46,598 nt of DNA, taken from contig CAMNOV010000008.1 of assembly GCA_946547105.1 (NCBI GenBank), forward strand, positions 1-46,598, given 5' to 3'. Each line of letters opens with the position of its first letter. Positions within the stretch are counted from its first letter, which is position 1. Source of the DNA: an uncultured Clostridia bacterium. GTDB taxonomy: Bacteria > Bacillota > Clostridia > Oscillospirales > Oscillospiraceae. Both the position numbers and the translations under genes were made by a program. Positions 6,259 to 45,291 of the stretch are shown here, piece after piece. The notes below the pieces were generated by a model. The model had not been told where the DNA came from. It ran no database searches and saw only the letters and a program-made list of their open reading frames with translations.

Positions 6259-7626
6259 ATGATCGATTTCAACAATTACCTCTGGCCCGAACGGCGCGGC
6301 CATCTGGTCGGCATCGGCGGCGTGTCGATGTCCTCCCTGGCCGAGGTGCTCAAGGGCATGGGGCTGAATATCAGCGGCTCGGATATGAACGAGAGCAAGA
6401 ACGTGCAGAGCCTGCGCGCGCTCGGCATCCCGGTGGCGATCGGCCATGCGGCGGAAAACGTCACCGACGACGTGGAGTTCGTGGTCCGCACGGCGGCCGT
6501 GCATGACGACAACCCGGAAATCATGGCGGCACGCTCCCGCGGCATCCCGATCTTTGAGCGCACCCAGGCCTGGGGCGCCATTTCCAAGGACTATCAGAAC
6601 GCCCTCTGCATCGCCGGCACCCACGGCAAAACCACCACCACCTCCATGTGCACGCACATCCTGATGGCGGCGGACCGGGACCCGACCGTGATGATCGGCG
6701 GCACGCTGCCGCTGCTCAATGCCGGCCATCGCGTCGGCCACGGCAACACGATCATCATGGAGGCCTGCGAATACTATAATTCCTTCCTCTCCTTTTACCC
6801 TACGGTGGCCGTGATTTTGAACATTGAGGCCGATCATCTGGACTTTTTCAAGGATCTGGCGGACGTGGAGCATTCCTTCCGCGCCTTCGCCGAGCGCACG
6901 CCCATGAACGGCACCGTCGTTGCCAATGCAGACGATGAGAACACGATGAACACGCTGCGCGGCATCAGCCGGGAAGTCATCACCTTCGGCCTGGAGAAAA
7001 AGGCGGACGTGACCGCGCGCAATATCGAATTCAAGGGCGCCAACAGCCACTTTGACGTGATCTACAAGGGCCGCAAGTTCACCGACGTGACGCTGCACGT
7101 GCCCGGACTGCACAACGTCAAGAACGCGTTAGCCGCCACGGCGGCGGCGATCTGTCTGGGCATCAGCCCCACGGCGGTCAAATACGGTCTGGCCGGCTTC
7201 AACGGCGCGGGCCGCCGCTTTGAGTTCAAGGGCAAGTACAACGGCGCGGACGTCTATGACGACTACGCCCACCATCCCGGCGAGCTGAAGGTGCTGCTGG
7301 ACACGGTGGAGCAGCTGGGCTACACGCGCACGATCCTGGTCTTCCAGCCGCATACCTACAGCCGCACGGCCGCGCTCTTCGACGATTTCGTGGAGCAGCT
7401 GCGCCGCCCGGATCTGACGGTGCTGGCGGAGATCTACGCCGCGCGCGAGAAAAACACGATCGGCATCTCCTCGGCGGCGCTGGCCGAGAAGGTGGAGGGC
7501 TCTCTGTTCTGCCCGAGCTTTGCCGAGCTGGACACTACGCTGCGCGCGCTGGCCCGTCCCGGCGATATCATCCTGACCGTCGGCGCCGGCGACGTCTACA
7601 AGGTCGGCGAGAAGCTGGTCAATTAG
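6259..7626 (+). CDS. murC: UDP-N-acetylmuramate--L-alanine ligase
   Basis: 455 residues, the usual MurC length. Adds the first amino acid of the peptidoglycan stem peptide in the cytoplasm using ATP. The N-terminal Rossmann domain starts HLVGIGGVSMSSLAE with GSDMNES. The ATP loop GTHGKTTTT is at 120-128, followed by EACEYYNSF and the metal-binding EADHLD, then the C-terminal domain with DDYAHHPGE and FQPHTYSRT. The TAG stop is the first triplet of a TTTTTAG heptad array. Confidence 0.96.
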   Translation: MIDFNNYLWPERRGHLVGIGGVSMSSLAEVLKGMGLNISGSDMNESKNVQSLRALGIPVAIGHAAENVTDDVEFVVRTAAVHDDNPEIMAARSRGIPIFERTQAWGAISKDYQNALCIAGTHGKTTTTSMCTHILMAADRDPTVMIGGTLPLLNAGHRVGHGNTIIMEACEYYNSFLSFYPTVAVILNIEADHLDFFKDLADVEHSFRAFAERTPMNGTVVANADDENTMNTLRGISREVITFGLEKKADVTARNIEFKGANSHFDVIYKGRKFTDVTLHVPGLHNVKNALAATAAAICLGISPTAVKYGLAGFNGAGRRFEFKGKYNGADVYDDYAHHPGELKVLLDTVEQLGYTRTILVFQPHTYSRTAALFDDFVEQLRRPDLTVLAEIYAAREKNTIGISSAALAEKVEGSLFCPSFAELDTTLRALARPGDIILTVGAGDVYKVGEKLVN

Positions 7627-7655
7627 TTTTTAGTTCTTAGTTTTTAGTTTTCAGA
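7624..7655 (+). repeat. TTTTTAG heptad array, sense to murC
   Basis: A leading TAG (the murC stop codon) followed by four heptads, two TTTTTAG and the variants TTCTTAG and TTTTCAG, then the common right flank AGAAGACGAAAG. It pairs with the inverted array at 7722-7753 across a hairpin. Confidence 0.85.
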
Positions 7656-7683
7656 AGACGAAAGAGAACGAATCCTCGATAAC

Positions 7684-7721
7684 AAGCAGGGCGCTGCGAC
7701 AGAAGTCACAGCGCCCTGCTT
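7684..7721. terminator. Hairpin between convergent murC and the E2-like gene
   Basis: AAGCAGGGCGCTG and its complement around a 10-base loop. It sits between two inverted heptad arrays, so the whole of 7624-7753 can fold as one long stem. It probably ends both convergent transcripts. Confidence 0.7.
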
Positions 7722-7753
7722 TCTAAAAACTAAGCACTAAAAACTAAAAACTG
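7722..7753 (-). repeat. TTTTTAG heptad array, sense to the E2-like gene
   Basis: On the minus strand there are four heptads (three TTTTTAG, one TGCTTAG) beginning a few bases after the TGA stop of the gene at 7756-8634. It is the inverted partner of 7624-7655. Confidence 0.85.
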
Positions 7754-7755
7754 TA

Positions 7756-8634
7756 TCACCGGATGTCTTCGACGACCTTGGTGGGCGGGGTCTCGAGGAT
7801 CTCGGGATGCTCGAACATGTAGCGGAAGGCGCGCAGGAGCTGCGCATAGTAGTGGCCGTCCACAATGCCCTCGTCGATGACCATCTTGGTGTCGACGTAC
7901 TTGTTGTCGATCACCTTGCCGTGGCGGTTGATCTCGTAGGCGTGGCGCTTGGCGCCGAAGGCGATGAACACCGGCAGGGTGCCGAAGTTGTAGATGTGGT
8001 GATAGACGGGGCCGATGCGCAGCGAGCCCAGGTCGGTGATGATCATGGAGCCGTGGAAGGGGCTGACGTCGGTCAGCTTCTCGGGCAGCCAGCCGAAATA
8101 GTCCATGATGCGCAGCACGCCGATGGCGGCGCGCAGCAGGAAGCGCGGCAGGCTGGCGGCGACCTCGGCAAAGTCCTCGGTGCCGTTGTTGTCGTCGCTG
8201 TCCTTGATTTCGCTGATCTTCTCGTTCATCTTGCGGTAAACGTCGAAGATCGTATCCGTCGGCTGGAAGCGGACCTTGATGGTGGTCTCGGTGGCGTCGA
8301 TCGTCAGCTCGCGCTTGACGGTCATGACGACCTCGATGTCCTTGTGGGCGTAAATGCGGCGGCCGGCGACAAAGCGGTTGATGCCGGGCAGCATGGAGGC
8401 CGTGCGGACATAGGTGGCGATGATGAAATGCAGCATGCCGATGCCCTTGTAGCCCTCCGTGCGCAGCTGGCGCAGGCGGCGGTCTACGGCGGTGACCTCA
8501 AAGGCTTCCTCGTAATGGACAAAGCGGTCGTTGCGCTGGGGCATGATGTAGGGGACGAATTTATTGAAGGCCGGCAGCGTGCGCAGCAGGCGCCCGTCCT
8601 TGCGGTCGCCGGGGCGGCGGGTATATTCACTCAT
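7756..8634 (-). CDS. Stand-alone E2-like (2-oxo acid dehydrogenase/CAT fold) acyltransferase homolog
   Basis: 292 residues with no lipoyl or peripheral-subunit-binding domain; only the catalytic-domain fold of dihydrolipoamide acyltransferases is present. Recognisable parts are a C-terminal beta-strand region with MIITDLGSLRIGPVYHH and IAFGAKRH, then DEGIVDGHYY (254-263). In true E2 enzymes this last motif reads DHRxxDG with a catalytic His; here Glu255 replaces it. No E1 or E3 genes are nearby, so a dehydrogenase-complex role is unlikely. From family knowledge, similar short proteins with DE-type motifs occur in Clostridia and are usually annotated as E2 by fold only. It starts at ATG 8634 after GGGAGG. 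Confidence 0.8.
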   Translation of the reverse strand: MSEYTRRPGDRKDGRLLRTLPAFNKFVPYIMPQRNDRFVHYEEAFEVTAVDRRLRQLRTEGYKGIGMLHFIIATYVRTASMLPGINRFVAGRRIYAHKDIEVVMTVKRELTIDATETTIKVRFQPTDTIFDVYRKMNEKISEIKDSDDNNGTEDFAEVAASLPRFLLRAAIGVLRIMDYFGWLPEKLTDVSPFHGSMIITDLGSLRIGPVYHHIYNFGTLPVFIAFGAKRHAYEINRHGKVIDNKYVDTKMVIDEGIVDGHYYAQLLRAFRYMFEHPEILETPPTKVVEDIR

Positions 8635-10239: not shown

Positions 10240-10419
10240 CGTCAGAAGAAGCGCGCTCCGCTCTGTCTCCGCCTGTCGGCGAAGACGGCGCATCCGCTTC
10301 CTCCTTCTTCCTTTCCGGTCCGGACCCGCTCCGCTGGGCTCCGGCCCGGGGAAAAGCATGAAAGCATGACAGGAAGTCTGTGCAGACGGGCGCAGACGGA
10401 CGAATTGGAGATAATGAGC

Positions 10420-11145
10420 ATGGAACTGAACATCTGCCATCTGTACCCGGATGTGCTGAACCTCTACGGCGACGGCGGCAACATCATCACCCTGACGCAG
10501 CGCCTGCGCTGGCGCGGGATCGAAGCGAAGGTCACGCGCGCGCCGATCGGCTCGCCGGTCTCGCTGGCGGGCGCTGACCTCGTGTTCATCGGCGGAGGCC
10601 AGGACTTTGAGCAGCAGGTGCTGCTGGAGGACCTGCACCGCGGCCGCGACCGCGAGATCAAGGCCGCGATCGAGGACGGGATCCCCTTCCTGACGATCTG
10701 CGGCGGCTATCAGATGCTGGGCGCCTACTACGAGACCTACGACGGCCAGCGCTGCGATTTCATCGGCGCGCTGGACCTCTACACCGTCGGCTCGCAGACG
10801 CGCATGATCGGCAATTACAAATTCCAGTGCACGCCGGAAGCGGGCGGCAGCGTGATCGTCGGCTTTGAAAACCACAGCGGCAAGACTCGCCTCGGCAGCG
10901 GCGTGCGGCCGCTGGGAAAGGTGCTCGCGGGCTTCGGCAACAACGGCGAGGACGGCACCGAGGGCGCGCACTATAAAAACGTCTTCGGCAGCTACAGCCA
11001 CGGGCCGATGCTGCCGAAAAATCCCGCCTTTGCCGACCTGCTGCTCTCGACGGCGCTCGAGCGCAAATACGGGAAAGCCGAGCTTTCGCCGCTGGACGAC
11101 CGCGCGGAGCTCGCCGCCCACGACGAGATGGCGGATAGAATTTAG
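10420..11145 (+). CDS. gatD: Lipid II isoglutaminyl synthase, GatD glutaminase subunit
   Basis: 241 residues, class-I glutamine amidotransferase-like. Supplies ammonia to MurT. The nucleophile is C94 in LTICGGYQ and the catalytic His is 194 in YSHGPMLPKNP; FIGGGQDFEQ and NLYGDGGN are typical GatD stretches. The ATG at 10420 has TTGGAG nine bases ahead and puts the nucleophile at the position known in GatD; ATG 10414 is the alternative. The 180 bp after murT (10240-10419) holds no gene or promoter that I can support, so co-transcription is likely. The TAG stop lies in a heptad array. Confidence 0.93.
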   Translation: MELNICHLYPDVLNLYGDGGNIITLTQRLRWRGIEAKVTRAPIGSPVSLAGADLVFIGGGQDFEQQVLLEDLHRGRDREIKAAIEDGIPFLTICGGYQMLGAYYETYDGQRCDFIGALDLYTVGSQTRMIGNYKFQCTPEAGGSVIVGFENHSGKTRLGSGVRPLGKVLAGFGNNGEDGTEGAHYKNVFGSYSHGPMLPKNPAFADLLLSTALERKYGKAELSPLDDRAELAAHDEMADRI

Positions 11146-11166
11146 ATTTTAGTTTTTAGTTTTTAG
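11143..11166 (+). repeat. TTTTTAG heptad array after gatD
   Basis: The gatD TAG stop is followed by ATTTTAG and two TTTTTAG units, then AAAGAGAACGGG leading into the next gene. It is a three-unit, unpaired copy between co-directional genes. Confidence 0.8.
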
Positions 11167-11180
11167 AAAGAGAACGGGTT

Positions 11181-12449
11181 ATGATACGTTTTTACAACGG
11201 CCGGGTGCTGTGCTTTGAGCCGGAGCTGCACCTGACGGAGGACGAGGTCTGGATCGACGGCGGCCGCATCGCCTACGTCGGCCCGGCGCGTATGGACAGG
11301 CCCGCCTTTGACCGGCAGATCGACCTGAAGGGCGACCTGCTGATGCCGGGCTTCAAAAACGCACACAGCCACACGGCGATGACCTTCCTGCGCTCCAAGG
11401 CGGACGATATGCCGCTCGACCGCTGGCTCTCGGAGCAGGTCTGGCCCAACGAGGCGAAACTTACCGACGAGGCGGTCTATACCTTCACCAAGCTCGGCAT
11501 CATGGAGTACGTTTCGAGCGGCGTGACCGCCTGCTTTGATATGTACGTCCACAACGACGCCTTCACCGCCGCCTGCATCGATGCGGGCTTTCGCGCGGTG
11601 ATCTGCTCGGGACTCAATAACTTCGACCGCGACGTGGAGCAGACCGAGCGGGACTATCTCAAGTATAACAGCCTGCACGAGCTGATCTCCTTCCGGCTCG
11701 GCATCCACGCGGAGTACACCACCAGTATGGAACGGATGGAGTACGCCGCGGGCCTGGCGGAGAAATACCACGCGCCCTGCTTTACGCATCTGTCCGAGAC
11801 AAAGGCCGAGGTCGAGGGCTGCCTTTCCCGCTACGGAAAAACGCCCCCGCAGCTGCTGGACGAGCTGGGCTTCTTCCGCTACGGCGGCGGCGGCTACCAT
11901 TGCGTGCACATGAGCGGGGAGGACATCGCGCTCTTTGCCGAAAAGGGCCTCTGGGCGGTGACCTGCCCGGGCTCGAACGCCAAGCTCGCCAGCGGCATCG
12001 CGCCGATCGAAAAGCTGCGGAAGGCGGGCGTGAAGCTCGCCATCGGCACCGACGGCGCGGCCAGCAACAACGCGCTGGACTTCTTCCGCGAGATGTATCT
12101 CGTTACCGCGCTTCAAAAGCTCATCGAGGGGGACGCCTCCGCCTGCCCGGCGGGGGAGGTGCTGCGCATGGCCTGCGTCGGCGGCGCCGGCGCGATGGGT
12201 CTGGACGACTGTGACGAGATCGCCCCGGGCAAAAAGGCGGATTTGGTCGTGATCGACCTGCAGCGGCCGAATATGCAGCCGGTCCACAACATTCCGAACA
12301 ATCTCGTCTATTCCGGCTCGAAGGAAAACGTGCGGCTGACGATGGTCAACGGGAAGATCCTCTACGAAAACGGGGAATTCTTTGTGGGAGAGGAGCCTGA
12401 GCGCATTTACGCGGCGGCCAACGCCTTTATCAGGGAACTGAAGACATGA
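11181..12449 (+). CDS. MtaD/SsnA-type amidohydrolase (putative MTA/SAH deaminase)
   Basis: 422 residues, metal-dependent amidohydrolase of the cytosine/adenosine-deaminase group. Metal and substrate motifs occur in order: NAHSHTAM (about 67-74), HAEYTTS, THLSET, CVHMSGED and GTDGAASNN, then the closing beta domain with GKKADLVVIDL. This set and the FLRSKADDMPLDRWL segment are typical of 5-methylthioadenosine/S-adenosylhomocysteine deaminases. The exact substrate (MTA, SAH, adenosine or another) cannot be set from sequence. The TGA stop overlaps the next ATG (ATGA), so it is coupled with the PHP gene. Confidence 0.88.
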   Translation: MIRFYNGRVLCFEPELHLTEDEVWIDGGRIAYVGPARMDRPAFDRQIDLKGDLLMPGFKNAHSHTAMTFLRSKADDMPLDRWLSEQVWPNEAKLTDEAVYTFTKLGIMEYVSSGVTACFDMYVHNDAFTAACIDAGFRAVICSGLNNFDRDVEQTERDYLKYNSLHELISFRLGIHAEYTTSMERMEYAAGLAEKYHAPCFTHLSETKAEVEGCLSRYGKTPPQLLDELGFFRYGGGGYHCVHMSGEDIALFAEKGLWAVTCPGSNAKLASGIAPIEKLRKAGVKLAIGTDGAASNNALDFFREMYLVTALQKLIEGDASACPAGEVLRMACVGGAGAMGLDDCDEIAPGKKADLVVIDLQRPNMQPVHNIPNNLVYSGSKENVRLTMVNGKILYENGEFFVGEEPERIYAAANAFIRELKT

Positions 12450-13297
12450 GAGAAATCGATTTACATGTGCATACGACTGCTTCCGACGGCACCTTTACGC
12501 CGACCGAGGCGGTGAAGCTCGCCGCGGAGACCGGGCTGCGCGCCATGGCCGTCACGGACCACGACAACATGCGCGGCTGCGCGGAGGCGATGCGCGCCGG
12601 AGAGGAATACGGCGTGGAGATCGTCCCCGGGATCGAGATCAGCACGAAATTCCGCCAGTCCGTCCATATCCTGGGCTACTACGTCGATCCCGAGGCCCCG
12701 GCCATGAAGGAGACTTTGGACTGGGTGGTGAACGACCGGGACGAGAGAAACAAAAAAATGGCGGCCCTGATGGCCGCCGACGGTCTGCCGGTGAGCTATG
12801 AGCAGATGCACGAGCGCTTCGGCCCCGTGATCGGACGGCCGCACTTCGGCCGGATCCTGGTGGAGCTCGGCCTGGCTGACAGCGTGGCCGAGGCCTTTGA
12901 CAAGTATGTGGAAAGGGGCCGGAAATACTACGTGCCCCGGAGCATCCTGTCGATCGAGCGCTCGGTGGAGATCATCCGGGAATCCGGCGGCGTGCCGGTG
13001 CTGGCCCATCCCTTCCAGTACCATCTGGACGACGCCGGCCTGCGCGAGCTGATCGAGCACTGCATGGAAAGCGGGCTGATGGGCATCGAGTGCCGGTACT
13101 CGGGCTATAATCAAAAGAGGGTCGAGTATCTGCTGGGTCTGGCAAAGGACTACGGCCTGCTGACGACCGGCGGCAGCGATTTCCACGGCAGCAACAAGCC
13201 GCACATTTCTTTGGGCCGCGGCGTCGGCGGCGACCTGGAGGTGCCCTACGAATACCTGCAGCGGCTGAAGGAAGCCGCGGGGCGAGTTAGTTTTTAG
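12446..13297 (+). CDS. PHP-domain phosphoesterase (RNase AM/YciV-like)
   Basis: 283 residues. PHP-fold metal sites are DLHVHTTASDG (5-15), TDHDN, EISTKF, GRPHFGRIL, LAHPFQY and the final GGSDFHGSN. The family includes the 5'-nucleotidase/5'-3' exoribonuclease RNase AM and other 3',5'-bisphosphate phosphatases; the specific role is inferred only. It overlaps the upstream deaminase by 4 bp, which hints at joint nucleotide turnover. The last codons (Val-Ser-Phe-stop) are read from the heptad array, so the 3' end of the gene has been remodelled by it. Confidence 0.9.
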   Translation: MREIDLHVHTTASDGTFTPTEAVKLAAETGLRAMAVTDHDNMRGCAEAMRAGEEYGVEIVPGIEISTKFRQSVHILGYYVDPEAPAMKETLDWVVNDRDERNKKMAALMAADGLPVSYEQMHERFGPVIGRPHFGRILVELGLADSVAEAFDKYVERGRKYYVPRSILSIERSVEIIRESGGVPVLAHPFQYHLDDAGLRELIEHCMESGLMGIECRYSGYNQKRVEYLLGLAKDYGLLTTGGSDFHGSNKPHISLGRGVGGDLEVPYEYLQRLKEAAGRVSF

Positions 13298-13318
13298 TTT
13301 TTAGCGCTTAGTTTTTAG
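13287..13318 (+). repeat. TTTTTAG heptad array overlapping the PHP gene 3' end
   Basis: Four heptads (three TTTTTAG, one CGCTTAG) that encode the last residues and TAG stop of the PHP protein. They are followed by AAGAAGACGAAAGAAC, nearly the same flank as after murC. It is paired with 13362-13394. Confidence 0.85.
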
Positions 13319-13361: not shown

Positions 13362-13394
13362 ACTAAAAACTAAGAACTGAAAACTAAAAACTAT
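13362..13394 (-). repeat. TTTTTAG heptad array, sense to degV
   Basis: On the minus strand four heptads (TTTTTAG, TTTTCAG, TTCTTAG, TTTTTAG) start directly behind the degV TGA stop. Confidence 0.85.
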
Positions 13395-20484: not shown

Positions 20485-21663
20485 TTGGCGGAGATGGATA
20501 TTTTCACGAAAGTCGAACGCTTCACATTGGCCGACGAATACCGGGAAATGGGCATTTATCCCTATTTCCACGCGCTGGAATCGCGGCAGGATACCGAGGT
20601 CATCATGGAGGGCAAGCGCCGCATCATGCTCGGCTCCAACAACTATCTCGGCCTGACGACGGAGCCTTCGGTCATCGAGGCCGGCATCCGCGCCTTTGAA
20701 AAATACGGCAGCGGCTGCTCCGGCTCGCGCTTCCTCAACGGCACGCTGGAAATGCATCTGGAGCTGGAACAGGAGCTGGCCGCCTTCGTACACAAGGAGG
20801 GCGCCGTGACCTTCTCCACCGGCTTTCAGTCCAATCTCGGCATCATCAGCGCCATCGTCGGCCGCGGGGACTACGTGATCTGCGACCGCGAGAACCACGC
20901 CAGCATCTACGACGGCTGCAAGCTCAGCTACGGCAAGATGATGCGCTATAAGCACAACGATATGGAAGAGCTGGAGAGCATCCTCAGCCGCATCCCGGAC
21001 GAGGCGGGCCGACTGATCGTCACGGACGGCGTGTTCTCCATGGGCGGCGATATCGCCAATCTGCCGGAGATCTGCCGCCTGGCCGAGCAGTACGGTGCGC
21101 GCGTTATGGTGGACGACGCCCACGGCCTCGGCGTGATCGGCGAGGGCGGCCGCGGCACGGCCAGCTACTTCGGCCTGGAGGACAAGGTGGACATCATCAT
21201 GGGCACCTTCTCCAAGTCCCTGGCGAGTCTCGGCGGCTATATGGCGGCCTCGGAAAAGGTCTGCGACTTCGTGCGCCACAATTCCCGCCCCTTCATCTTC
21301 TCCGCGTCCATCCCACCCTCCGCCTGCGCCACCGCGCTGGCCGCGCTGCGGCATCTGGAGGCGCACCCGGAGCTGCCCGTGCGTCTGCGCGCGCTGGCGG
21401 CGCATGCCAGAGCAGGCCTCAAGGCCGCCGGTCTGCACGTGCGCGAGTCCGAAACGCCGATCGTCCCGATCTACACCTACGAGGCGGTGCGCACGCTGCA
21501 GAAGGCCAAGGAGGCCTACGACGCCGGTGTGTACGTCAACCCCGTGCTGCCGCCCGCCACGCCGCCGACCGAGTGCCTGCTGCGCACGAGCTATATGGCG
21601 ACGCTGACCGAGCCGCTGATCGACGAGGCCGTGGAGATCCTCGGCCGTGTGCTGAGGGATTAG
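20485..21663 (+). CDS. Alpha-oxoamine synthase, serine-palmitoyltransferase-like
   Basis: 392 residues, PLP-dependent fold type I. It joins an amino acid with an acyl-CoA. Family features are GSNNYLGL (50-57), GSGCSGSRFLNGT (75-87), HAS (138-140), DDAHGLG (210-216) and GTFSKS with Schiff-base Lys about 244. The stretches YPYFHALESRQDT, VFSMGGDIANLPEI and SRPFIFSASIPP resemble Bacteroidetes serine palmitoyltransferases more than Kbl or BioF by my recollection, but glycine C-acetyltransferase remains possible. The likely start is TTG 20485 with AAAGG upstream; ATG 20494 has its SD too close. The TAG stop opens a heptad array. Confidence 0.85.
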   Translation: MAEMDIFTKVERFTLADEYREMGIYPYFHALESRQDTEVIMEGKRRIMLGSNNYLGLTTEPSVIEAGIRAFEKYGSGCSGSRFLNGTLEMHLELEQELAAFVHKEGAVTFSTGFQSNLGIISAIVGRGDYVICDRENHASIYDGCKLSYGKMMRYKHNDMEELESILSRIPDEAGRLIVTDGVFSMGGDIANLPEICRLAEQYGARVMVDDAHGLGVIGEGGRGTASYFGLEDKVDIIMGTFSKSLASLGGYMAASEKVCDFVRHNSRPFIFSASIPPSACATALAALRHLEAHPELPVRLRALAAHARAGLKAAGLHVRESETPIVPIYTYEAVRTLQKAKEAYDAGVYVNPVLPPATPPTECLLRTSYMATLTEPLIDEAVEILGRVLRD

Positions 21664-21691
21664 TTTTTAGTTTTCAGGTTTTAGTTTTTAG
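21661..21691 (+). repeat. TTTTTAG heptad array after the oxoamine synthase gene
   Basis: The gene's TAG stop is followed by TTTTTAG, TTTTCAG, GTTTTAG and TTTTTAG, then the usual AAGAAACGAA flank and a hairpin. No inverted partner is visible on the far side. Confidence 0.85.
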
Positions 21692-24389: not shown

Positions 24390-24401
24390 GGGGTATTTTC
24401 C

Positions 24402-24430
24402 AAAAACTAAAAACTAAGATCTAAAAACTG
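24402..24430 (-). repeat. TTTTTAG heptad array downstream of the DUF2804 gene
   Basis: On the minus strand: TTTTTAG, ATCTTAG, TTTTTAG, TTTTTGG. It follows the terminator hairpin of the DUF2804 gene, and its first T-run serves as the terminator tail. Confidence 0.8.
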
Positions 24431-24457
24431 AAACCCTCCGCGGCAGCGGAGGGTTTC
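24430..24457 (-). terminator. Terminator of the dnaD-dnaI-DUF2804 operon
   Basis: A perfect 12-bp stem GAAACCCTCCGC with a 4-base loop directly behind the TAA stop. On the minus strand it is followed by AGTTTTTAG, i.e. the heptad array. Confidence 0.82.
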
Positions 24458-27565: not shown

Positions 27566-29650
27566 ATGATCGAGCTTCTCTCTCCCGCCGGTTCGCCGGA
27601 ATCCGTGATCGCCGCCGTACAGAACGGCGCGGACGCGGTCTATCTCGGCCTGGGCGATTTCAACGCCCGCCGCGGCGCCAAAAACTTCACCGACGAGGAG
27701 TTTCGCAAGGCGATGCGCTATTGCCGCGTGCGCGGCTGCAAGGTCTATGTGACGCTCAACACCCTGGTGGGCGACCGGGAGATGGAGGCCGCCGTGGACG
27801 CGGCGCGTCTGGCCTCCGACGAGGGCGCGGACGGGCTCATCGTGCAGGACCTCGGCATGTCGGCGGCCATCCGCCGCGCACTGCCGGATATTCCGCTGCA
27901 CGCGAGCACCCAGATGAGCATCCACAACCTGGCCGGCGTGGAGGCTGCCGCCGAGATGGGCATGACCCGCGCGGTTCTGGCCCGCGAGCTCAGTCTGGAG
28001 CAGATCAAATTCATCACCAAACACGCCTCCATCGAGACCGAGGTCTTCGTGCACGGCGCGCTGTGCTTCTGCCATTCCGGCCAGTGCTATATGTCCGCGC
28101 TGATCGGCCGCCGCAGCGGCAACCGCGGCGCCTGTGCCCAGCCCTGCCGCATGCAGTATTCCCTCGGCGGGCGCATGGACGATTATCCGCTCTCCCTCAA
28201 GGACAGCTGCCTGGTCGACCGGCTGCAGGAGCTGGAGGACGCGGGCGTTGCCTGCCTGAAGATCGAGGGCCGCATGAAGCGCCCCGAATACACCGCCATC
28301 GTGACCGAGATCTATGCCAAGGCGCTCAAGGAGCACCGCAAGCCCACCCGCGAGGAGATGAGCACGCTCGAGCAGGCCTTCTCCCGCGACGGTTTTACCC
28401 AGGGCTATTTCAACGGCGATAAAAAAGATATGTTCGGCGTCCGCGGCGAGCCGGAGCGCGAGACCGAGAAGCTCTTCACCGCCGCCCGCCGCAATTACGC
28501 CGAGGGCGAAGCGCGCCGCGTGCCGGTGCATTTCTACACCGTCTGTGAGACGGACCAGCCGATCCGCGCCATCGCCTTTGACGACGACGGCCACCGCGCC
28601 GTGGCCGAGGGACCCGTGCCCGAGGAGGCCAAGCGCCAGGGCCTGACCGAGACCTATCTGACCGACCAGATGATCAAGACCGGCGGTACGCCCTACCAGG
28701 TCGTGGAAAACCGCGCCAAGGTGGACCGGGGGCTCTTCCTGCCCGCCGCGGCGATCAACGAGCTGCGCCGGAATCTGATCTCCCAGCTGAGCGAGGCGCG
28801 CGCCGAAGCGCCGCACCGCCGCAGCCTGCCCCTGCCGCCTCCGCCGCGCGGCGCGCAGAACGTCCTCGACCCGAAGCGCATCTACCAGGTGCGCACGGCC
28901 GACCAGCTCAGCGAGGAGCTCGCCGAGCTCAAGCCGGATTACCTCTACGTCCCCGCTCTGGTCATGGCGGACGACTATGAGCGCATCCGCCCCTTCGTCG
29001 ACCGCGGCACCGTCCCCGTGGCGGTCCTGCCCCGCGTTATCACCGACGACGAGCTGCCCATCGTCTACCGCGCGCTGGAAAAGCTCTTCAGCTTCGGCGT
29101 CAACGAGGCGCTGATCGGAAACCTCGGCCAGATCGTCATGGCCCGCAAGGCCGGTATGAAGGTCCGCGGCGACTTCGGCCTCAATATGTTCAACTCCTAC
29201 AGCCTGGACGTGCTGCGCGAGGCGGGCTTCCTGTCCGCGACGGCCTCGTTCGAACTGCGCCTGTCGCAGATCCGTGATCTGCGCAAGCCCCTGCCGGTGG
29301 AGGCGATCGTCTACGGCCGCCTGCCGCTGATGATCTCCGACCAGTGCATCATCAAAAACAGCGCCGGCCGCTGCAGCTGCCAGAACCCGGCTCAGATGTC
29401 CGACCGCATGGGCTCGGTGTTCCCGGTGGTGCAGGATTTCGGCTGCCGCAACGTCATCTACAACGCGCACAAGCTGTATCTGGCCGACAAGCAGGAGGAT
29501 ATCTTCGCCGCCGGTCTCTGGGGCGCGCGCCTGATGTTCACCACCGAGACCACGCGCGAGGTCGTCGAAGTGGCCAAGGGCTATATGGGCCAGTCCAACT
29601 ACAAGCCCAACGTGCTCACCCGCGGACTCTATTACCGCGGCGTGGATTAG
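27566..29650 (+). CDS. Peptidase U32-family protein (RlhA/TrhP-like)
   Basis: 694 residues. Begins ELLSPAGSPESVIAAVQNGADAVYLG, then the U32 signature with EVFVHGALCFCHSGQCYMS (about 165-185), RGACAQPCRMQY and KIEGRMKRPEYTA. A long C-terminal half with further Cys (CSCQNPAQMSDRMG) resembles the DUF3656-containing RlhA type. Members hydroxylate 23S rRNA C2501 (RlhA) or tRNA U34 (TrhP) and likely carry an iron-sulfur cluster; protease activity is doubtful. Which RNA is modified here is not clear. ATG 27566 follows GAAGGAG. The TAG stop opens a heptad array. Confidence 0.9.
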   Translation: MIELLSPAGSPESVIAAVQNGADAVYLGLGDFNARRGAKNFTDEEFRKAMRYCRVRGCKVYVTLNTLVGDREMEAAVDAARLASDEGADGLIVQDLGMSAAIRRALPDIPLHASTQMSIHNLAGVEAAAEMGMTRAVLARELSLEQIKFITKHASIETEVFVHGALCFCHSGQCYMSALIGRRSGNRGACAQPCRMQYSLGGRMDDYPLSLKDSCLVDRLQELEDAGVACLKIEGRMKRPEYTAIVTEIYAKALKEHRKPTREEMSTLEQAFSRDGFTQGYFNGDKKDMFGVRGEPERETEKLFTAARRNYAEGEARRVPVHFYTVCETDQPIRAIAFDDDGHRAVAEGPVPEEAKRQGLTETYLTDQMIKTGGTPYQVVENRAKVDRGLFLPAAAINELRRNLISQLSEARAEAPHRRSLPLPPPPRGAQNVLDPKRIYQVRTADQLSEELAELKPDYLYVPALVMADDYERIRPFVDRGTVPVAVLPRVITDDELPIVYRALEKLFSFGVNEALIGNLGQIVMARKAGMKVRGDFGLNMFNSYSLDVLREAGFLSATASFELRLSQIRDLRKPLPVEAIVYGRLPLMISDQCIIKNSAGRCSCQNPAQMSDRMGSVFPVVQDFGCRNVIYNAHKLYLADKQEDIFAAGLWGARLMFTTETTREVVEVAKGYMGQSNYKPNVLTRGLYYRGVD

Positions 29651-29679
29651 TTTTTAGTTCTTAGTTTTTAGTTTTCAGA
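29648..29679 (+). repeat. TTTTTAG heptad array between the U32 gene and maf
   Basis: The TAG stop is followed by TTTTTAG, TTCTTAG, TTTTTAG and TTTTCAG, the same unit order as after murC. The flank AATAAAGAAGG then acts as the maf ribosome site. Unpaired. Confidence 0.85.
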
Positions 29680-34457: not shown

Positions 34458-35816
34458 ATGGCAAAAGTCAATCCCCGCACCCTGTCGGGCTTCATGGAGC
34501 TGCTGCCCGCCGAACAGATGAAGTTTGAGCGCATGCTGCAGATCCTGCGCGAGAGCTACGCGGTCTACGGCTTCACGCCGCTGGATACGCCCGTGATCGA
34601 ATCGGCCGAGGTGCTGCTGGCCAAGGGCGGCGGCGAAACCGAGAAGCAGATCTACCGCTTCCAGAAGGGCGACAGCGATCTGGCGCTGCGCTTTGACCTG
34701 ACGGTGCCGCTGGCCAAATATGTGGCCGCCAATTACGCCAATCTTTCCTTCCCCTTCCGCCGCTACCAGATCGGCAAGGTCTACCGCGGCGAGCGCGCCC
34801 AGCGCGGCCGCTTCCGCGAATTCTACCAGGCCGATATCGACGTGATCGGCGACGGGAAGCTGGATATCAGCAACGAGGCGGAGATCCCCGCCATTATCTT
34901 CCATACGTTCTCACGCCTTGGATTGAGCAAATTTAAAATCCGGGTCAACAACCGCAAGCTCCTCAACGGCTTTTACGCGATGAACGGCATGAGCGAGAAG
35001 GCCGGCGAGATCATGCGCACGGTGGACAAGCTCGACAAGATCGGTGCGCAGAAGGTCAAGCAGCTGCTCATCGACGAGGTGAAGATGCTGCCCGACAAGA
35101 GCGAGAACGTGCTGGACTTCATGGCCATTCAGGGCTCGAACGAGTACGTGCTCTCCCGCCTGGAGGAGTACCGCCAGATGAACGAGCCGACCTTCAATCA
35201 GGGTCTGGACGAGCTGATCGAGGTCACAAAAAACCTGGCCGCCTTCGGCGTGCCGGAGGAAAACTTCGCCATCGACCTGACCATCGCGCGCGGCCTCGAC
35301 TACTACACCGGCACCGTCTACGAGACCGTGATGACCGAGCATCCCGAGATCGGCTCCGTCTGCTCCGGCGGGCGCTACGACAACCTGGCCGAGTATTACA
35401 CCGACCGGCAGCTGCCCGGCGTCGGTATTTCGATCGGTCTGACGCGGCTCTTTTACGTACTCAACGAGCAGGGCCTGCTGTCCGACGAGATCGTTACCGC
35501 GCCCTGTGACGCGCTGGTGATCCCGATGACCGAGGATCTCGGCGCCGCCGTCTCCGCGGCCACCGAGCTGCGGAAGGCAGGCGTTCGCACACAGATCTAC
35601 GGCGAGAAAAAGAAATTCAAGGCCAAGATGAGCTATGCCGACAAGATCGGCGTACCCTTCGTGCTGCTGCTCGGCGAGGATGAGATCGCCGAAGGCAAGG
35701 TCTCGCTCAAGGATATGGCGAGCGGCGAGCAGCAGAAGCTCACGGCCGCGGAGGCGGCACAGCAGATCCGTACCGCCGTGGACGCGAGAAACGCAAAGCC
35801 CGTCATCAAGGAGTAA
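34458..35816 (+). CDS. hisS: Histidyl-tRNA synthetase
   Basis: 452 residues, class II. Motif 2 region FRRYQIGKVYRGERAQRGRFREFYQADIDVIG, histidine motif LARGLDYYTG-type TIARGLDYYTGTVYE, motif 3 GISIGLTRLFYVL, and a C-terminal anticodon-binding domain (from about 350). ATG 34458 follows AAAGGA. Forms a pair with aspS, as in many Firmicutes. No T-box is present in front. Confidence 0.95.
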   Translation: MAKVNPRTLSGFMELLPAEQMKFERMLQILRESYAVYGFTPLDTPVIESAEVLLAKGGGETEKQIYRFQKGDSDLALRFDLTVPLAKYVAANYANLSFPFRRYQIGKVYRGERAQRGRFREFYQADIDVIGDGKLDISNEAEIPAIIFHTFSRLGLSKFKIRVNNRKLLNGFYAMNGMSEKAGEIMRTVDKLDKIGAQKVKQLLIDEVKMLPDKSENVLDFMAIQGSNEYVLSRLEEYRQMNEPTFNQGLDELIEVTKNLAAFGVPEENFAIDLTIARGLDYYTGTVYETVMTEHPEIGSVCSGGRYDNLAEYYTDRQLPGVGISIGLTRLFYVLNEQGLLSDEIVTAPCDALVIPMTEDLGAAVSAATELRKAGVRTQIYGEKKKFKAKMSYADKIGVPFVLLLGEDEIAEGKVSLKDMASGEQQKLTAAEAAQQIRTAVDARNAKPVIKE

Positions 35817-35817
35817 C

Positions 35818-35849
35818 AGTTTTCAGTTTTTAGTCTTTAGTTTTTAGAA
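35818..35849 (+). repeat. TTTTTAG heptad array between hisS and aspS
   Basis: TTTTCAG, TTTTTAG, TCTTTAG and TTTTTAG, starting 1-2 bp after the hisS TAA stop. The flank AAGAAACGAGGAG doubles as the aspS ribosome site. Unpaired. Confidence 0.85.
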
Positions 35850-35866
35850 GAAACGAGGAGAATCAT

Positions 35867-37633
35867 ATGATGCAGTCCAGGACCCATACCTGCGGCGAGC
35901 TGCGGCTTGCGAACGCGGGCGAACAGGTAAAAATCGTCGGCTGGATGGAAAACCTCCGCGAGGTCGGCGCCAGCCTCGGCTTTGTCGTCGTGCGCGACTT
36001 CTACGGAACTACCCAGGTCGTTGTGGAGACCGAGGATATGATGCGCGCCTTCAAGGCCATCAACAAGGAATCCACGATCTCTGTCGAGGGCGTTGTCCGC
36101 GAGCGCGCCAGCAAGAACCCCAAGCTCCCCACCGGCGACATTGAAGTCGTGCCCACGAAGGTCGAGGTTCTCGGCCGCTGCCGCTACAACGAGCTGCCCT
36201 TTGAGATCAACCGCAGCCGCGAGGCCGACGAGAGCGCGCGCCTCAAGTACCGTTACCTCGACCTGCGCAACCCCGACGTCAAGAAGAACATCATTCTGCG
36301 CTGCAACGTGGTGTCCGCGCTGCGCCGCGCCATGATCGAGCACGGCTTCCTGGAGATCACCACCCCGATCCTCACCGTGTCCTCTCCCGAGGGCGCGCGC
36401 GACTACCTGGTGCCCTCCCGCAAGCACCCCGGCAAGTTCTATGCCCTGCCGCAGGCGCCGCAGCAGTTCAAGCAGCTGCTGATGACCTCCGGCTTCGACC
36501 GCTATTTCCAGATCGCCCCCTGCTTCCGCGACGAGGACGCCCGCGGCGACCGCAGCCCCGGCGAGTTCTATCAGCTCGATATGGAGATGGCCTTCGCCAG
36601 CCAGGAGGACGTGTTCGCGGTGCTCGAGGACGTGCTGCCCCCGATCTTTGCCGAGTACGGCGCGTATAACATCGCCTCCTCCGCTCCCTTCCGCCGCATC
36701 GCCTATCTTGATGCGCTGGAGACCTACGGCACCGACAAGCCCGACCTGCGCATCGACCTGACCGCGCGGGACGTCACCGCGCTCTTTGAGGGCACGGAGT
36801 TTGCGCCCTTCCAGGGCCAGACCGTCAAGGCCGTCCCGGTTTCCGGCTGCACGCTGACCCGCAAGCAGATCGACAAGCTGCTGGCCGAGGTGGAAGTGCA
36901 GTCCGGCGCGAAGGGCTACTGGTTCAAGACCGACGAGACCGGCGCCATCGCCGGCGGCGTCGCCAAGTTTGTGGACGCGGACAAGGCGAAGGCCATGCTG
37001 GATCTCGCGCCCAACACGCTGGTGCTGCTCGCGGCCGGCCCCCTCGCTGTCAAGACCATCGGCGTTGCGATCAAGACCTTCGGCCCTGCCGTTCCCGGCC
37101 ACTTTGACAAGGAGCGCTACGAATTCTGCTGGATCACCGACTTCCCGATGTACGAGATCGGCGAGGAGAGCGGCGAGCTGGAATTCTGCCACAATCCGTT
37201 TTCCATGCCCAAGGGCGGCCTGGAGACCCTGCTGAAGGCCGAGCGCGGCGAGATCGACCCGCTGAGCATCATGGCCGACCAGTACGACCTGGTCTGCAAC
37301 GGCGTGGAGCTTTCTTCCGGCGCTGTTCGTAACCACGATCCCGAGATCATGGTCAAGGCCTTTGAGATGGTGCGCCTGGGCGAGGAGGACGTGAAGAAGA
37401 AATTCCCCGCCATGTACAACGCCTTCTGCTACGGCGCGCCCCCGCACGCCGGTATCGCCCCGGGCGTGGACCGCATGGTCATGCTGCTGGCGGGCGTGGA
37501 CACGATCCGCGAGGTCATTCCGTTCCCGCTGAACAAGAACGCGCAGGACCTGATGATGGACGCGCCCTCCGAGGTGACGCAGAAGCAGCTCGACGAGCTG
37601 CACATCGCCGTCACCGCGAAGGAAGAGGAATAA
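35867..37633 (+). CDS. aspS: Aspartyl-tRNA synthetase (bacterial type with GAD domain)
   Basis: 588 residues, the bacterial size. N-terminal OB anticodon domain, class II motif 1-2 with [36 protein letters not shown] and [23 protein letters not shown], a GAD insertion (about 290-400), and motif 3 [15 protein letters not shown]. The N-terminal domain reads [18 protein letters not shown] instead of the usual arginine-rich RRDHGG signature, so tRNA recognition may differ. GAGGAG precedes two adjacent ATGs (35867, 35870). Confidence 0.94.
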
Positions 37634-40668: not shown

Positions 40669-41908
40669 CACCGAAATTTTGTCCGTCGGCACCGAGCTGC
40701 TGCTCGGCCACGTCACCAACACCGACGCGCGCGACGTCTCCGAGCTTCTGAGCAAGATCGGCGTCAACGTGCGCTGGCACACCGTGGTGGGCGACAACCC
40801 CGTGCGCCTGCGCGAGTGCGTGGAGATCGCCAAGAGCCGCGCGGACGTGATCATCACGACCGGCGGCCTCGGGCCGACCTGCGACGATCTGACGAAAAAG
40901 GTGCTGGCCGAGGCCTTCGGCCTGGAGCTTAAGCGCAACGAGGCGGAGTACCAGGGGCTCTACGACTATATCCGCCCCGACCGGGAGTTCACGCCCAACA
41001 ACTTTGCCCAGGCCGATCTGCCGGAGGGCTGCACCGTTTTCCACAACGACTGGGGTACCGCGCCCGGCTGCGCCTTTGAGGCGCAGGGCAAGATCGTCGT
41101 CATGTTGCCCGGCCCTCCGGGCGAGTGCGTGCCGATGTTCAAGGCCTGCGCGATCCCGTATCTGCAGAAGCTCTCGGACGAGCTGATCGTCAGCCACTCG
41201 CTGCGCATCTTCGGCATGGGCGAGAGCACCGTGGATCAGATCTTCCGCGACGAGATGAACGAGATGACGAACCCCAGCATGGCGCCTTACGCCAAGGAGT
41301 GCGACTGCCTGCTGCAGGTGACTGCGAAGGCGAAAAGCGAGCGTGATGCCGAGGCGATGATCCGCCCCGTGATGGCGCATGTGCGCGAAAAGCTGGGCGA
41401 CGTGGTCTACGGCGAGGACGTGGAGACGCTGGAAGAGGCCGTGCTGCAGATCCTCAAGCAGCGCCCTGCGACCTTTGCGGCAGCGGAGAGCTGCACCGGC
41501 GGCGATATCGCCCGCCGCTTTACCGAGCTGCCCGGCGCGAGCGCCTTTTTCCTCGGCGGCGTCGTGAGCTACACCAACGGCGTCAAGGCCGGAGTGCTGG
41601 GCGTCGACCCGGTGCTCATCGAGGAAAAGGGAGCCGTGAGCTATGAGGTCGCCAAAGCGATGGCCGAGCGCGTGCGCGCGATCACAGGCGCGGACATCGG
41701 CCTCGGCGTGACGGGGCTGGCCGGGCCCGACGGCGACGGCGTGCACGAGGTCGGCACGGTGTTCGTGTCGATGGCCGTGGAAGGGAAGACCTGGGTGCGC
41801 GAGCTGCACCTCGGCGCCTTCCGCACGCGCAGCTTCATCCGCCGCATGGCCGGCAACCATCTCTTTGACATGATGCGCCGCTGGCTCACCGGACTGGAGA
41901 TCCAATAA
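40655..41908 (+). CDS. cinA: CinA: competence/damage-inducible protein with NMN deamidase domain
   Basis: 417 residues. N-terminal MoaB/COG1058 nucleotide pyrophosphatase-like domain (SVGTELLLGHVTNTDA, TTGGLGPTCDDLT, MLPGPPGEC) and C-terminal CinA/PncC domain (about 255-415) with AAESCTGGDIARRFTELPGAS, GVVSYTNGVKAGVLGV and GVTGLAGPDGDG. Implicated in pyridine-nucleotide recycling. Translationally coupled to thiI. Confidence 0.95.
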   Translation: MKSYNTEILSVGTELLLGHVTNTDARDVSELLSKIGVNVRWHTVVGDNPVRLRECVEIAKSRADVIITTGGLGPTCDDLTKKVLAEAFGLELKRNEAEYQGLYDYIRPDREFTPNNFAQADLPEGCTVFHNDWGTAPGCAFEAQGKIVVMLPGPPGECVPMFKACAIPYLQKLSDELIVSHSLRIFGMGESTVDQIFRDEMNEMTNPSMAPYAKECDCLLQVTAKAKSERDAEAMIRPVMAHVREKLGDVVYGEDVETLEEAVLQILKQRPATFAAAESCTGGDIARRFTELPGASAFFLGGVVSYTNGVKAGVLGVDPVLIEEKGAVSYEVAKAMAERVRAITGADIGLGVTGLAGPDGDGVHEVGTVFVSMAVEGKTWVRELHLGAFRTRSFIRRMAGNHLFDMMRRWLTGLEIQ

Positions 41909-41928
41909 TCATCCTTCAACAAAAAGCA

Positions 41929-41966
41929 GAGACCGTGCGGCTCATGCGCCGCACGGTCTCTTTATA
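41929..41966. terminator. Bidirectional terminator between cinA and the small XRE gene
   Basis: AGAGACCGTGCGGC and its complement around TCATGC, with A-run before and TTTAT after, so it can serve both converging genes. It overlaps the XRE stop region. Confidence 0.82.
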
Positions 41967-42180
41967 AGGGCTGATCCTGATCCGAAGGGATGTATTCCAT
42001 CACGTCCTCAACCCGGCAGTTCAAAATGCGGCAGAGATCGTTGATCGTTGTTGTATTCACCGGGCGATTATTCCGCAGCTTGTCCAGTGTAGAGCTTGAA
42101 ATCCGATGGCGGTTGATCAGCGTATAGGTTGACTCCCGGGAGGCCCGCAGCGTCTCCCAAAAGCGTGCGTATGAAATCAT
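41962..42180 (-). CDS. Small XRE-family helix-turn-helix regulator
   Basis: 72 residues, almost only a Cro/C1-type HTH: SRESTYTLINRHRISSSTLDKLRNNRPVNTTTINDLCRILNCRVEDVMEYIP (HTH about 11-64, quoted here only in its overall pattern of helices). ATG 42180 follows GGAGGTGA. Divergent from an unknown membrane-protein gene. A dyad over that gene's -35 box is a probable target. Stand-alone YozG-like regulators of this type are common in Firmicutes. Confidence 0.88.
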   Translation of the reverse strand: MISYARFWETLRASRESTYTLINRHRISSSTLDKLRNNRPVNTTTINDLCRILNCRVEDVMEYIPSDQDQPL

Positions 42181-42211
42181 CGAGAGCTCACCTCCACACT
42201 TTATTATGGGA

Positions 42212-42231
42212 ATAGTTTTTAACTTGACTAT
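42212..42231. promoter_or_regulatory. Probable operator between the XRE and membrane-protein genes
   Basis: Inverted repeat ATAGT-N10-ACTAT that overlaps the -35 box of the plus-strand promoter and lies 32 bp ahead of the XRE start. Its position suits repression of both genes. Confidence 0.5.
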
Positions 42232-42252
42232 GGTCGAAAAAGAGACTATAAT
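42224..42252 (+). promoter_or_regulatory. Sigma-A promoter of the unknown membrane-protein gene
   Basis: TTGACT, 17-bp spacer, perfect TATAAT; the leader is about 80 bases. Confidence 0.85.
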
Positions 42253-42340
42253 CAAAGTAAAGCACTTCTCTTGTTTCATACAGAGGATTATGCTATATTG
42301 TTATTCAGTGATCCCAAAAACATACAGGAGGACACGACAG

Positions 42341-43342
42341 ATGGCTAACGAGCTTTATGCGGCGCTGGAGCGCTTTGGCTTTGAGAACGAGGGCTCGGTT
42401 TGTTTCGGAACATGGAAAGGCTATGCGGTCTCCCTGCGCCCCTTGACGGCAAAGACGTATTATGTGGATGTCGCGGTGCGGCTGGCAAAGGTGCCGGGCG
42501 GCCTTCGCCGGAATCTCAACCGCGCGCTGAAGGAGCCGGGACTGAAGATCGGCGGTGTGGAGCTGATCCGGAAAAAGGTGATTACCATTTCCGTTTCCTT
42601 TGCCAAGGCAGAAGACCTGGCCGCGCGCTTTGCCGAACGGATGGACACCCTTACGGCGGCGCTGCGCGAAAACAGCATTGCTCCGGCGGATACCTGCGCC
42701 GTGACCGGCGCGGCCCGTCCGGACAGCCTTTGCCTGGTGGTCGCGGAGGGGACGCTCTGCTATCAGCCGGTCTGCGCGGCGGCGATCCGGGAAAAGGACC
42801 TGCGCACCCGCGAAAAGGCAGAGGACAACCAGGCCAACGGCAGCTATGCGCTGGGCATTGTCGGCGCGCTGCTGGGGATGCTGCTCGGCGTGGTCCTCAA
42901 CGTGCTGGGCATCGTGTTTACCGAGCGGATCTATGCGCTCCTATTTGCGTTGGTGCCGTTGGCGGCGATGTTCGGCTATAAGTTGTTCAAGGGAAAGATG
43001 AGCAAAGGCTCGATCGCCATCGTCATCATCCTCAGCCTGCTGGCTATTCCGATGATCCCGTTTTGTGAAATGATCTTCTATTTTGTCCGCGATTACGGCG
43101 TGTCGGTCGGCGAAGCGCTGGCCGCCGCCGCGAAACTGATCTTTATGCCGGAATTCCTCTCGGAAATCAGAGGCGAGCTGCTGCAGCTCGTGCTGTTCAT
43201 GGCGCTCGGCATCTGGATCGCCTGGCGCTATATCAGCGGCCAGACCAACAGCAGCCAGGTCACGGGCACCGCGGCCCAGCTTGCCACGCTGCGCCCCAAC
43301 CCCGCTTATGCGCAGAGCGCGGAAACCGGATCCGCATCCTGA
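42341..43342 (+). CDS. Hypothetical membrane protein with soluble N-terminal domain
   Basis: 333 residues from ATG 42341 (CAGGAGGAC ahead). Residues 1-150 look like a folded cytoplasmic domain: a two-layer alpha/beta part (LYAALERFGFENEGSVCFGTWKGY, VSFAKAEDLAARFAERMDTL) followed by a cysteine-containing segment (C-A-V-T-G ... C ... C-Y-Q-P-V-C, about 117-147) that could bind metal. Four hydrophobic segments follow (about 167-190, 193-212, 222-248, 280-300), then a Ser/Thr/Ala-rich tail. I do not recognise the family. Confidence 0.75.
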   Translation: MANELYAALERFGFENEGSVCFGTWKGYAVSLRPLTAKTYYVDVAVRLAKVPGGLRRNLNRALKEPGLKIGGVELIRKKVITISVSFAKAEDLAARFAERMDTLTAALRENSIAPADTCAVTGAARPDSLCLVVAEGTLCYQPVCAAAIREKDLRTREKAEDNQANGSYALGIVGALLGMLLGVVLNVLGIVFTERIYALLFALVPLAAMFGYKLFKGKMSKGSIAIVIILSLLAIPMIPFCEMIFYFVRDYGVSVGEALAAAAKLIFMPEFLSEIRGELLQLVLFMALGIWIAWRYISGQTNSSQVTGTAAQLATLRPNPAYAQSAETGSAS

Positions 43343-43370
43343 AAGCGGAACAGAGACGAGCCCGGGCTTC

Positions 43371-45220: not shown

Positions 45221-45221
45221 G

Positions 45222-45291
45222 TGCTTAGATCCTGGTTTTCGGCGCGCAGAAGTTTGCTTCTACAAACTAAAAACTAAGAACTAAAAACTAA
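45222..45291. repeat. Paired heptad element between deoC and infC
   Basis: The right arm (45262-45291) is an inverted TTTTTAG array: on the minus strand TTTTTAG, TTCTTAG, TTTTTAG, TTTGTAG. The left arm, starting just behind the deoC TGA, is a degenerate four-heptad array (TGCTTAG, ATCCTGG, TTTTCGG, CGCGCAG). Between them is the short hairpin AGAAG-TTTG-CTTCT. Confidence 0.7.

Follow-up and report, generated by a model that had tools for sequence, protein, structure and literature searches.

Tandem arrays of about four heptads, TTTTTAG with a few variant units, stand behind many genes of an uncultured gut bacterium of the Clostridia (Oscillospiraceae), and, as read from alignments with its relatives, the first partial unit of an array often coincides with the stop codon, with TAA or TGA exchanged for TAG and the protein left unchanged. 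Between species of about 88-95% identity, the same alignments show that arrays have been gained, lost, lengthened and shortened by whole units and that units have been replaced, the direction of these changes being mostly not polarised. We tentatively regard the arrays as lineage-specific heptads of the STRR/LSSR kind, produced by template switching or slippage together with purifying selection, and give this reading a probability somewhat under one half (about 0.45).

The window, that is, the whole stretch of 46,598 nt on contig CAMNOV010000008.1 of assembly GCA_946547105.1 (genome G000; a bin of 1.89 Mb in 110 contigs, 85.6% complete), holds 21 overlapping matches to a pattern of three TTTTTAG units with at most three mismatches, and 100 dinucleotide shuffles hold none. 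Over the whole bin the pattern matches 58 times forward and 60 times in reverse, and a reversed control pattern does not match. We distinguished 55 TTTTTAG arrays in about 0.73 Mb of this genome (the window and further stretches), which bears out the dispersal proposed in the preliminary description; gene contexts were counted for 53 of them, two (in L059 and L027) being left out, with gene calls from our own hexamer script. The second set of G000 stretches and the stretches of genome G061 were taken from contigs with matches, so that array densities are biased upwards, and neither orientation nor position was selected for. In the GC-rich G000 sample, itself enriched for matches, there is about one array per nine genes (49 arrays, 430 gene ends). 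Most G000 contigs sampled at a GC content of 0.60-0.66 carry arrays; C7 (0.62) has none in the 40 kb taken. Ten stretches from contigs C1, C2, C4 and C5 (L028-L033, L037-L040) have a GC content of 0.48-0.58 and no arrays. This GC split, with the array-free contigs, makes the bin look mixed, and these ten stretches probably belong to a second organism.

Two related stretches align to the window: L068, from the MAG RUG12339 (genome G076), at about 92-95% identity, and L069, from RUG14654 (G077), at about 88-92%. All ten arrays first described for the window are present at their places, both on reading the sequence and with the three-unit pattern. Nine are, as originally described, sense to the gene that ends before them, three of these on the minus strand, and the tenth (45267-45287, minus) lies between two plus-strand genes behind a degenerate sense arm:

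7620-7654, plus strand: TTTTTAG array; its first partial unit, CAATTAG, holds the TAG stop of murC (identified by TIGR01082)
7684-7721, no strand: terminator-like hairpin between two convergent genes and their arrays
7723-7750, minus strand: TTTTTAG array with one TGCTTAG unit, sense to the minus-strand gene 7756-8634 (TGA stop)
11139-11166, plus strand: array whose first, degenerate unit AATTTAG is the stop of the GATase_3 gene 10414-11145
13284-13318, plus strand: array behind the PHP-phosphatase-like gene 12446-13297, whose frame passes the first TTAG and ends at the TAG of the next unit
13363-13390, minus strand: array sense to the minus-strand DegV gene, the inverted partner of 13284-13318 around a terminator-like hairpin
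21657-21691, plus strand: array behind a BioF/serine palmitoyltransferase-like gene, with GAT TAG here and GAC TGA in G076 and G077
24400-24434, minus strand: array beyond the terminator-like hairpin of the minus-strand DUF2804 gene
29644-29678, plus strand: array between the U32 peptidase and Maf genes; L068 and L069 have no array and a TGA stop there
35820-35847, plus strand: array between hisS (TAA stop) and aspS
45260-45287, minus strand: array antisense to the DeoC-like gene before it, with the degenerate sense arm at about 45221-45249

The upstream genes matched in NCBIfam or Pfam are murC, GATase_3, the PHP phosphatase, DegV, the BioF-like gene, DUF2804, U32 and hisS, the PHP and BioF-like matches falling below the curated NCBIfam cut-offs. 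Gene 7756-8634 has no Pfam match, yet at its 3' end it shows 96% identity to both G076 and G077. By our gene call, the array at 24400-24434 (three-unit match 24407-24427) lies 24 nt past the DUF2804 stop. The murC ortholog of G076 has TGCTTAG and TTCTTAG units after the same stop, and that of G077 ends in TAA with no array. The insert that carries the array at 45260-45287 is absent from both related stretches. Between hisS and aspS, L069 is empty, with a 27-base gap between the same anchors, and L068 (11336-11560) holds, in place of the heptad array of G000, a different insert, some 200 bases long (CCTTCCCC...GGGGAAG) and bordered by TAA at either end; a similar insert begins at another G076 stop (L156:18109). 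Elsewhere in the window, about 1.4 kb with one gene (41905-43364; gene 42341-43342, no Pfam match) is absent from L068 and L069, and L070 has a gene of similar sequence at the place of this gene.

The arrays are closely tied to gene ends. In G000, 49 of the 53 are sense to the preceding gene, against 46% for random non-coding positions on a random strand, and in 44 the first unit starts within -14 to +10 nt of the in-frame stop of that gene (null 3.3%, p about 1e-56); the other nine comprise four with no called sense gene upstream and five that are 12-34 nt away. The expected size of about four heptads was right: 31 arrays have four units, four have two, eight three, nine five and one six, and the modal number is four in G000, G061 and G064 and three in G076. 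The preliminary description had named random orientation, variable unit number and equal frequency inside genes or at 5' ends as patterns that would speak against it. None of these appeared: orientation is overwhelmingly sense, unit number is near-constant, and 59 of the 61 period-7 arrays in the G000 sample are non-coding. The placement is repeated in G061 and, less cleanly, in G064, where as a raw count 14 of 25 arrays fall -14 to +10 nt from the end of the longest open frame in their vicinity (14 of the 19 that have an open frame of at least 80 codons). Convergent gene ends carry an array more often than co-directional ones (25/98 versus 23/327, p = 4e-6). Gaps shorter than 21 nt have no array, and many arrays fill the space from the stop codon to a terminator-like hairpin or ribosome-binding site.

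The surroundings of the arrays are less uniform than had been supposed. The right flank said to be shared by many was overstated, as 7 of the 55 right flanks contain AGA[AG]0-4ACGA, compared with none of 55 control windows; an array is mostly followed by AA (75% and 82% A at these two bases), and beyond them the flanks mostly differ between G000 arrays. In four G064 stretches (L196, L197, L198, L200) arrays have a longer stretch behind them in common (AAACGG..GTTTAGCG, with variants), which mostly runs into a GTAGGGGC-type repeat. Hairpins stand beside many arrays and differ from locus to locus. The regions of the two convergent pairs that were folded are strongly structured (7620-7756, -59.1 kcal/mol, z -11.0; the pair 13284-13318 and 13363-13390, z -12.1), and in both the paired array arms lengthen the hairpins; a lone array folds no better than shuffles (35813-35870, z 0.47). 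With Rfam 15 at the gathering threshold, no array in the window has a match. The only Rfam match in the window is a T-box leader (RF00230; 2122-2372, minus strand).

The fusion with the stop codon is evident from codon usage. In the GC-rich G000 stretches, TAG is the stop of 26 of 49 array genes and of 15 of the 381 genes without an array (odds ratio 27.6, p = 5e-18), so that array genes own 26 of the 41 TAG stops in this array-enriched sample. A period-based detector gave the same picture for arrays of TAG-bearing units in G000 (22/38 versus 18/382), and also in G061 (35/44 versus 15/196, with one gene of another heptad array left out) and G076 (5/11 versus 34/688). Where TAG array genes could be compared with G077, the relative has TAA or TGA in 7 of 7 cases, one pair being doubtful (78% identity, 7 residues longer in G000), and 6 of 6 array genes with a TAA or TGA stop have the same stop there. 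Relative to G076, 21 TAG array genes correspond to TAG in 11, TAA in five and TGA in five. Protein length is equal in 36 of 40 comparisons with G076 and 10 of 13 with G077. At both 21657 and 29644, GAC TGA in the two relatives stands against GAT TAG followed by the array in G000. These comparisons indicate that the array often brings the stop codon with it, at the old place; because TAG was often absent before the array, a TAG anchor cannot have guided many of the insertions.

Turnover among close relatives is equally marked. The three-unit pattern matches 118 times in G000, 17 times in G076 and once in G077; in 400 kb of G077 there is no non-coding period-7 array and a single one that is coding by our calls. 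Since these sister species have dense, sparse and almost no arrays on colinear genes, sites with and without an array can be set side by side at single-base resolution. For 46 of the 55 sites the left flank has a match in the G076 stretches, two of these matches being doubtful (L057, 67% identity; L062, 77%), and the sites were classed by eye: 27 have no array (some have another insert), eight have a TTTTTAG-type array, six have TGCTTAG- or TGCGTAG-type units (at 7620, 7723, L036:8303, L042:8405, L042:8480 and, a short one, L055:3000) and five have TTCGGAA arrays (L043:3858, L060:17683, L027 and both L066 sites). Several of the eight shared TTTTTAG-type sites differ in unit number, and the length differences at shared loci are of whole units (2 versus 4, 6 versus 4, 3 versus 5). 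At L058:6271 the sister genome has a partial unit, and at L065 a gene overlap in G076 corresponds to a stop, an array and a ribosome-binding site in G000. Genes with an array in G000 more often have a heptad array in their G076 ortholog than other genes do (8/36 versus 11/200, p = 0.003). The detector behind these figures is strict and overlooks short arrays; by eye the count is 19 of 46 sites. We also considered hot spots common to different heptad families and rejected them, as TTCGGAA occurs at 2 of 36 orthologs of array genes and 6 of 200 others (p = 0.35). Such quick coming and going between sister species marks a fast-evolving dispersed repeat.

On a wider scale the distribution is patchy. 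Within the genus, 23 of 61 genomes, G000 included, match the pattern at up to three mismatches, some with one or two chance-like hits, and 12 have ten or more matches; of 294 other genomes of the order, two match at up to one mismatch. One of these two, G329, has its arrays beside other heptads; most of these arrays stand 27-85 nt past the closest open frame, which in several cases is short. Nine viral-collection stretches from IMG/VR (L262-L270) hold a 28-base TTTTTAG array, and four of them hold two in a row. Phages as carriers were considered and set aside, 11 phage records having given only short partial matches.

The heptad period itself is a property of these genomes. Non-coding period-7 arrays number 59 in G000, 28 in G076 and 56 in G061, with at most two, three and one, respectively, at any of the periods 4-6 and 8-13; period 14 is the double of 7. 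They include other heptads of the same class, namely TTCGGAA, TGCTTAG and GGAGTGA-like units, and of the 14 TTCGGAA arrays in G000 eight abut a stop as we read them and six lie elsewhere, some of them antisense before a ribosome-binding site. The variants of TTTTTAG are far from random. In the 45 G000 arrays of at least four units, T-to-C changes at positions 1 to 5 occur in 1, 1, 29, 0 and 36 units, and no unit is the double variant TTCTCAG. The consensus TTTTTAG makes up a larger share of the outer than of the inner units (55/90 versus 41/101, p = 0.006). TTTTCAG, the most frequent variant (44, against 32 for TTCTTAG), is common to all the species, TTCTTAG is shared by the close pair G000 and G076, G061 has TTTGTAG and TTTATAG, and G064 has TTTTAAG. 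The composition of the unit pool depends on the species (chi2 166, 30 d.f., some cells being small; p = 9e-9 for G000 against G061 alone), so that each species draws on its own short list of units. Identical whole arrays were no commoner than after shuffling of units in G000 (two pairs versus 3.0), which led us to reject whole-array copying there; the corresponding figures are 4 versus 0.86 in G061 (p = 0.03) and 3 versus 0.84 in G064 (p = 0.08).

To account for these features, we suggest that the arrays are written into the short untranslated gap that opens at the stop codon and closes at the next ribosome-binding site or at the terminator hairpin. A nascent DNA strand with a unit-matching end would pair with an array elsewhere in the genome, or slip on its own array, copy a few heptads and then return. 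Such copying would draw units from a species-wide pool, so that arrays would share unit types and not whole sequences. Purifying selection would clear insertions from coding sequence, terminators and ribosome-binding sites, leaving the gap behind the stop, and no benefit to the cell need be assumed. Several observations weigh against this copying-plus-selection reading. Selection and random placement alone do not explain why the arrays reach exactly to the stop, since a protein should often tolerate the gain or loss of a few C-terminal residues; TAG was often not in place beforehand as an anchor for insertion; the consensus excess in outer units is not what template switching would predict; and there is the slight excess of identical whole arrays in G061. 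We find it less likely, though worth stating, that an as yet undescribed process, working without reverse transcriptase or Y1 transposase, assembles heptads unit by unit, phase-locked to the stop, from a small species-specific set that is replaced across loci as species diverge, and rewrites arrays in place with the flanks kept, as with TTTTTAG and TGCTTAG at the same loci.

The preliminary description favoured a functional or mobile unit. For function, U-rich heptads behind the stop could be bound by a protein and thereby govern where transcription terminates, how stable the mRNA is or how the gene is kept apart from the next one, the units co-evolving with the binder; a cold-shock protein, a protein of the S1 or Hfq type and the elongating polymerase are candidate binders, taken in part from PMC4679880. 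The exact sense placement behind stops, the discrete species-specific unit set, the near-constant size and the excess at convergent ends all suit a functional element, as does the recurrence of arrays at the G076 orthologs of array genes, which shared descent would also give. We nevertheless consider it doubtful, because a sister species lacks non-coding period-7 arrays in 400 kb, the genus is patchy (matches in 23 of 61 genomes), no known RNA family matches the arrays of the window, and TTTTTAG and TTCGGAA, of unlike composition, coexist within a genome and, at five array sites, stand at the same stop in one species and in the other. Still less support can be given to a selected back-up stop, in which three units, 7 being 1 modulo 3, place TAG in all three frames: TTTTTAG, TGCTTAG, TTTTAAG and TTTTGAG all carry a stop, but TTTTCAG destroys it and is commoner than the stop-keeping TTCTTAG, and TTCGGAA has no stop in any frame and also starts at stop codons, so that as a general function this is contradicted and we hold it to be very improbable. 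As to mobility, a non-autonomous element akin to REP/REPIN or MITEs, mobilised by a transposase (Y1/RAYT or another) and leaving a solo array as one arm, would fit the gains or losses between close species, the inverted arm pairs and the longer right flank shared by several G064 arrays. Elements with a two-hairpin core between inverted heptad arms do occur in other members of the genus, at L080 (11356, 16074), L081 (11361), L071 (4894) and L168 of G076 (12350-12477), with GGTRTC ... GAYACC in L080 and L081, stems that differ per copy and an arm unit that differs by species; possibly they form a REPIN-like or MITE-like family. No such core was found in the G000 sample with a low-sensitivity pattern that also missed the L168, L081 and L071 cases, and we set aside the idea that the arrays derive from it. 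Five array-rich genomes have Y1_Tnp (G064, G040, G046, G059, G017); it was not found in array-rich G000 (85.6% complete), G061, G058 (95% complete) and G050, and is present in array-free G001, G008, G012 and G074, and thus does not track the arrays among these genomes. With whole arrays not shared beyond chance in G000 and right flanks mostly unlike, the dispersal that had been claimed stands, and we judge the mobile unit improbable.

Two further explanations concern the synthesis of the repeats. Plain replication slippage, acting at each locus on its own with a 7-nt step favoured by the polymerase, is consistent with the whole-unit length differences at shared loci, and in many bacteria no long repeats are commoner than heptads, for which polymerase slippage has been proposed (Mrazek 2007, as cited in PMC4679880 and PMC4692102). 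However, many sites have neither array nor seed in the sister genome (the partial unit at L058:6271 is an exception), TTTTTAG is concentrated in arrays (105 units in 53 arrays, against only 122 occurrences in 522 kb), and unit types are common to many loci and differ by species. The early argument against simple slippage is thereby upheld, and slippage alone is unlikely, indeed quite improbable in our estimation. Reverse-transcriptase-templated synthesis of the DRT10 or telomerase type would explain the species-specific units and the stop codon as primer end; in DRT10, as described in PMC12632851, a short RNA template dictates the tandem repeats, and changes in the template are tolerated. Of 20 genomes, three contain RVT_1, and G064 and G050 are the only array-rich ones among them. 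It was not found in array-rich G000, G061, G058, G040, G046, G059 and G017 (75-95% complete), where a very divergent reverse transcriptase could be missed, and G058 (95% complete) has neither RVT_1 nor Y1_Tnp; a reverse transcriptase is therefore not needed for the arrays, and we give this explanation very little credence.

The arrays resemble known repeats in several respects. They are exact tandem direct repeats of a 7-nt unit, with many dispersed intergenic copies and a patchy, strain-specific distribution, as in STRR and LSSR families. The cyanobacterial STRR heptanucleotide repeats of Calothrix and Nostoc are likewise dispersed tandem heptads, with other units and in another phylum. REP/REPIN sequences, which are linked to the Y1 transposase RAYT, are also small, dispersed and extragenic; they are palindromic, whereas TTTTTAG is a direct repeat without a palindrome of its own and with a varying right flank. 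The closest parallel is the TAACTGA heptamer of Beggiatoaceae, cyanobacteria and some Bacteroidetes (MacGregor 2015, PMC4679880), described there as mostly intergenic, oriented and strain-specific, in 2-6 copies, with related heptamers mixed in, 7-nt length steps and stop codons in all frames. Its unit is different and, in the main genome treated there, it lies mostly just upstream of start codons, in contrast to TTTTTAG at the stop (44/53); TAACTGA sets overlap the end of the upstream ORF in 14 of 169 cases, and the sections of PMC4679880 drawn on here hold no count of stop-codon replacement or of unit swaps between sister species. Xanthomonas GGGAATC and Nostoc GGGGA(C/T)T repeats, as portrayed in PMC4692102, are also mostly intergenic heptads that vary in length and sequence between close species, and GGGAATC/GGGGATT repeats downstream of a gene are mostly close behind its stop on the coding strand, some overlapping it. 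They differ in being G-rich and quadruplex-forming, and in the majority lying between the same genes in two Xanthomonas (PMC4692102). Our units carry a single G as a rule, and G-runs able to form quadruplexes were not found in them. The tandem-repeat cDNA of DRT10 shares short tandem repeats and a flexible unit; according to PMC12632851 its main system has a 9-nt unit, and G000 yielded no RVT_1.

The preliminary description knew of no account of this repeat. For the unit this holds, since in the full text of openly licensed papers we found neither TTTTTAG arrays nor heptads in this clade; it does not hold for the class, which is described (PMC4679880, PMC4692102). Intergenic heptanucleotide repeats are thus a known kind, with examples in cyanobacteria, Beggiatoaceae and Xanthomonas, and what seems new is the replacement of the stop codon and the turnover of units.

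In summary, unrelated bacteria have been known for decades to carry heptanucleotide repeats, and we know of no accepted origin for them. The fusion with the stop codon, the change of TAA or TGA to TAG and the swapping of units at fixed positions are facts for which any proposed origin has to account, and they open the question to testing. They also show that which stop codons a genome uses can be influenced by a dispersed repeat.
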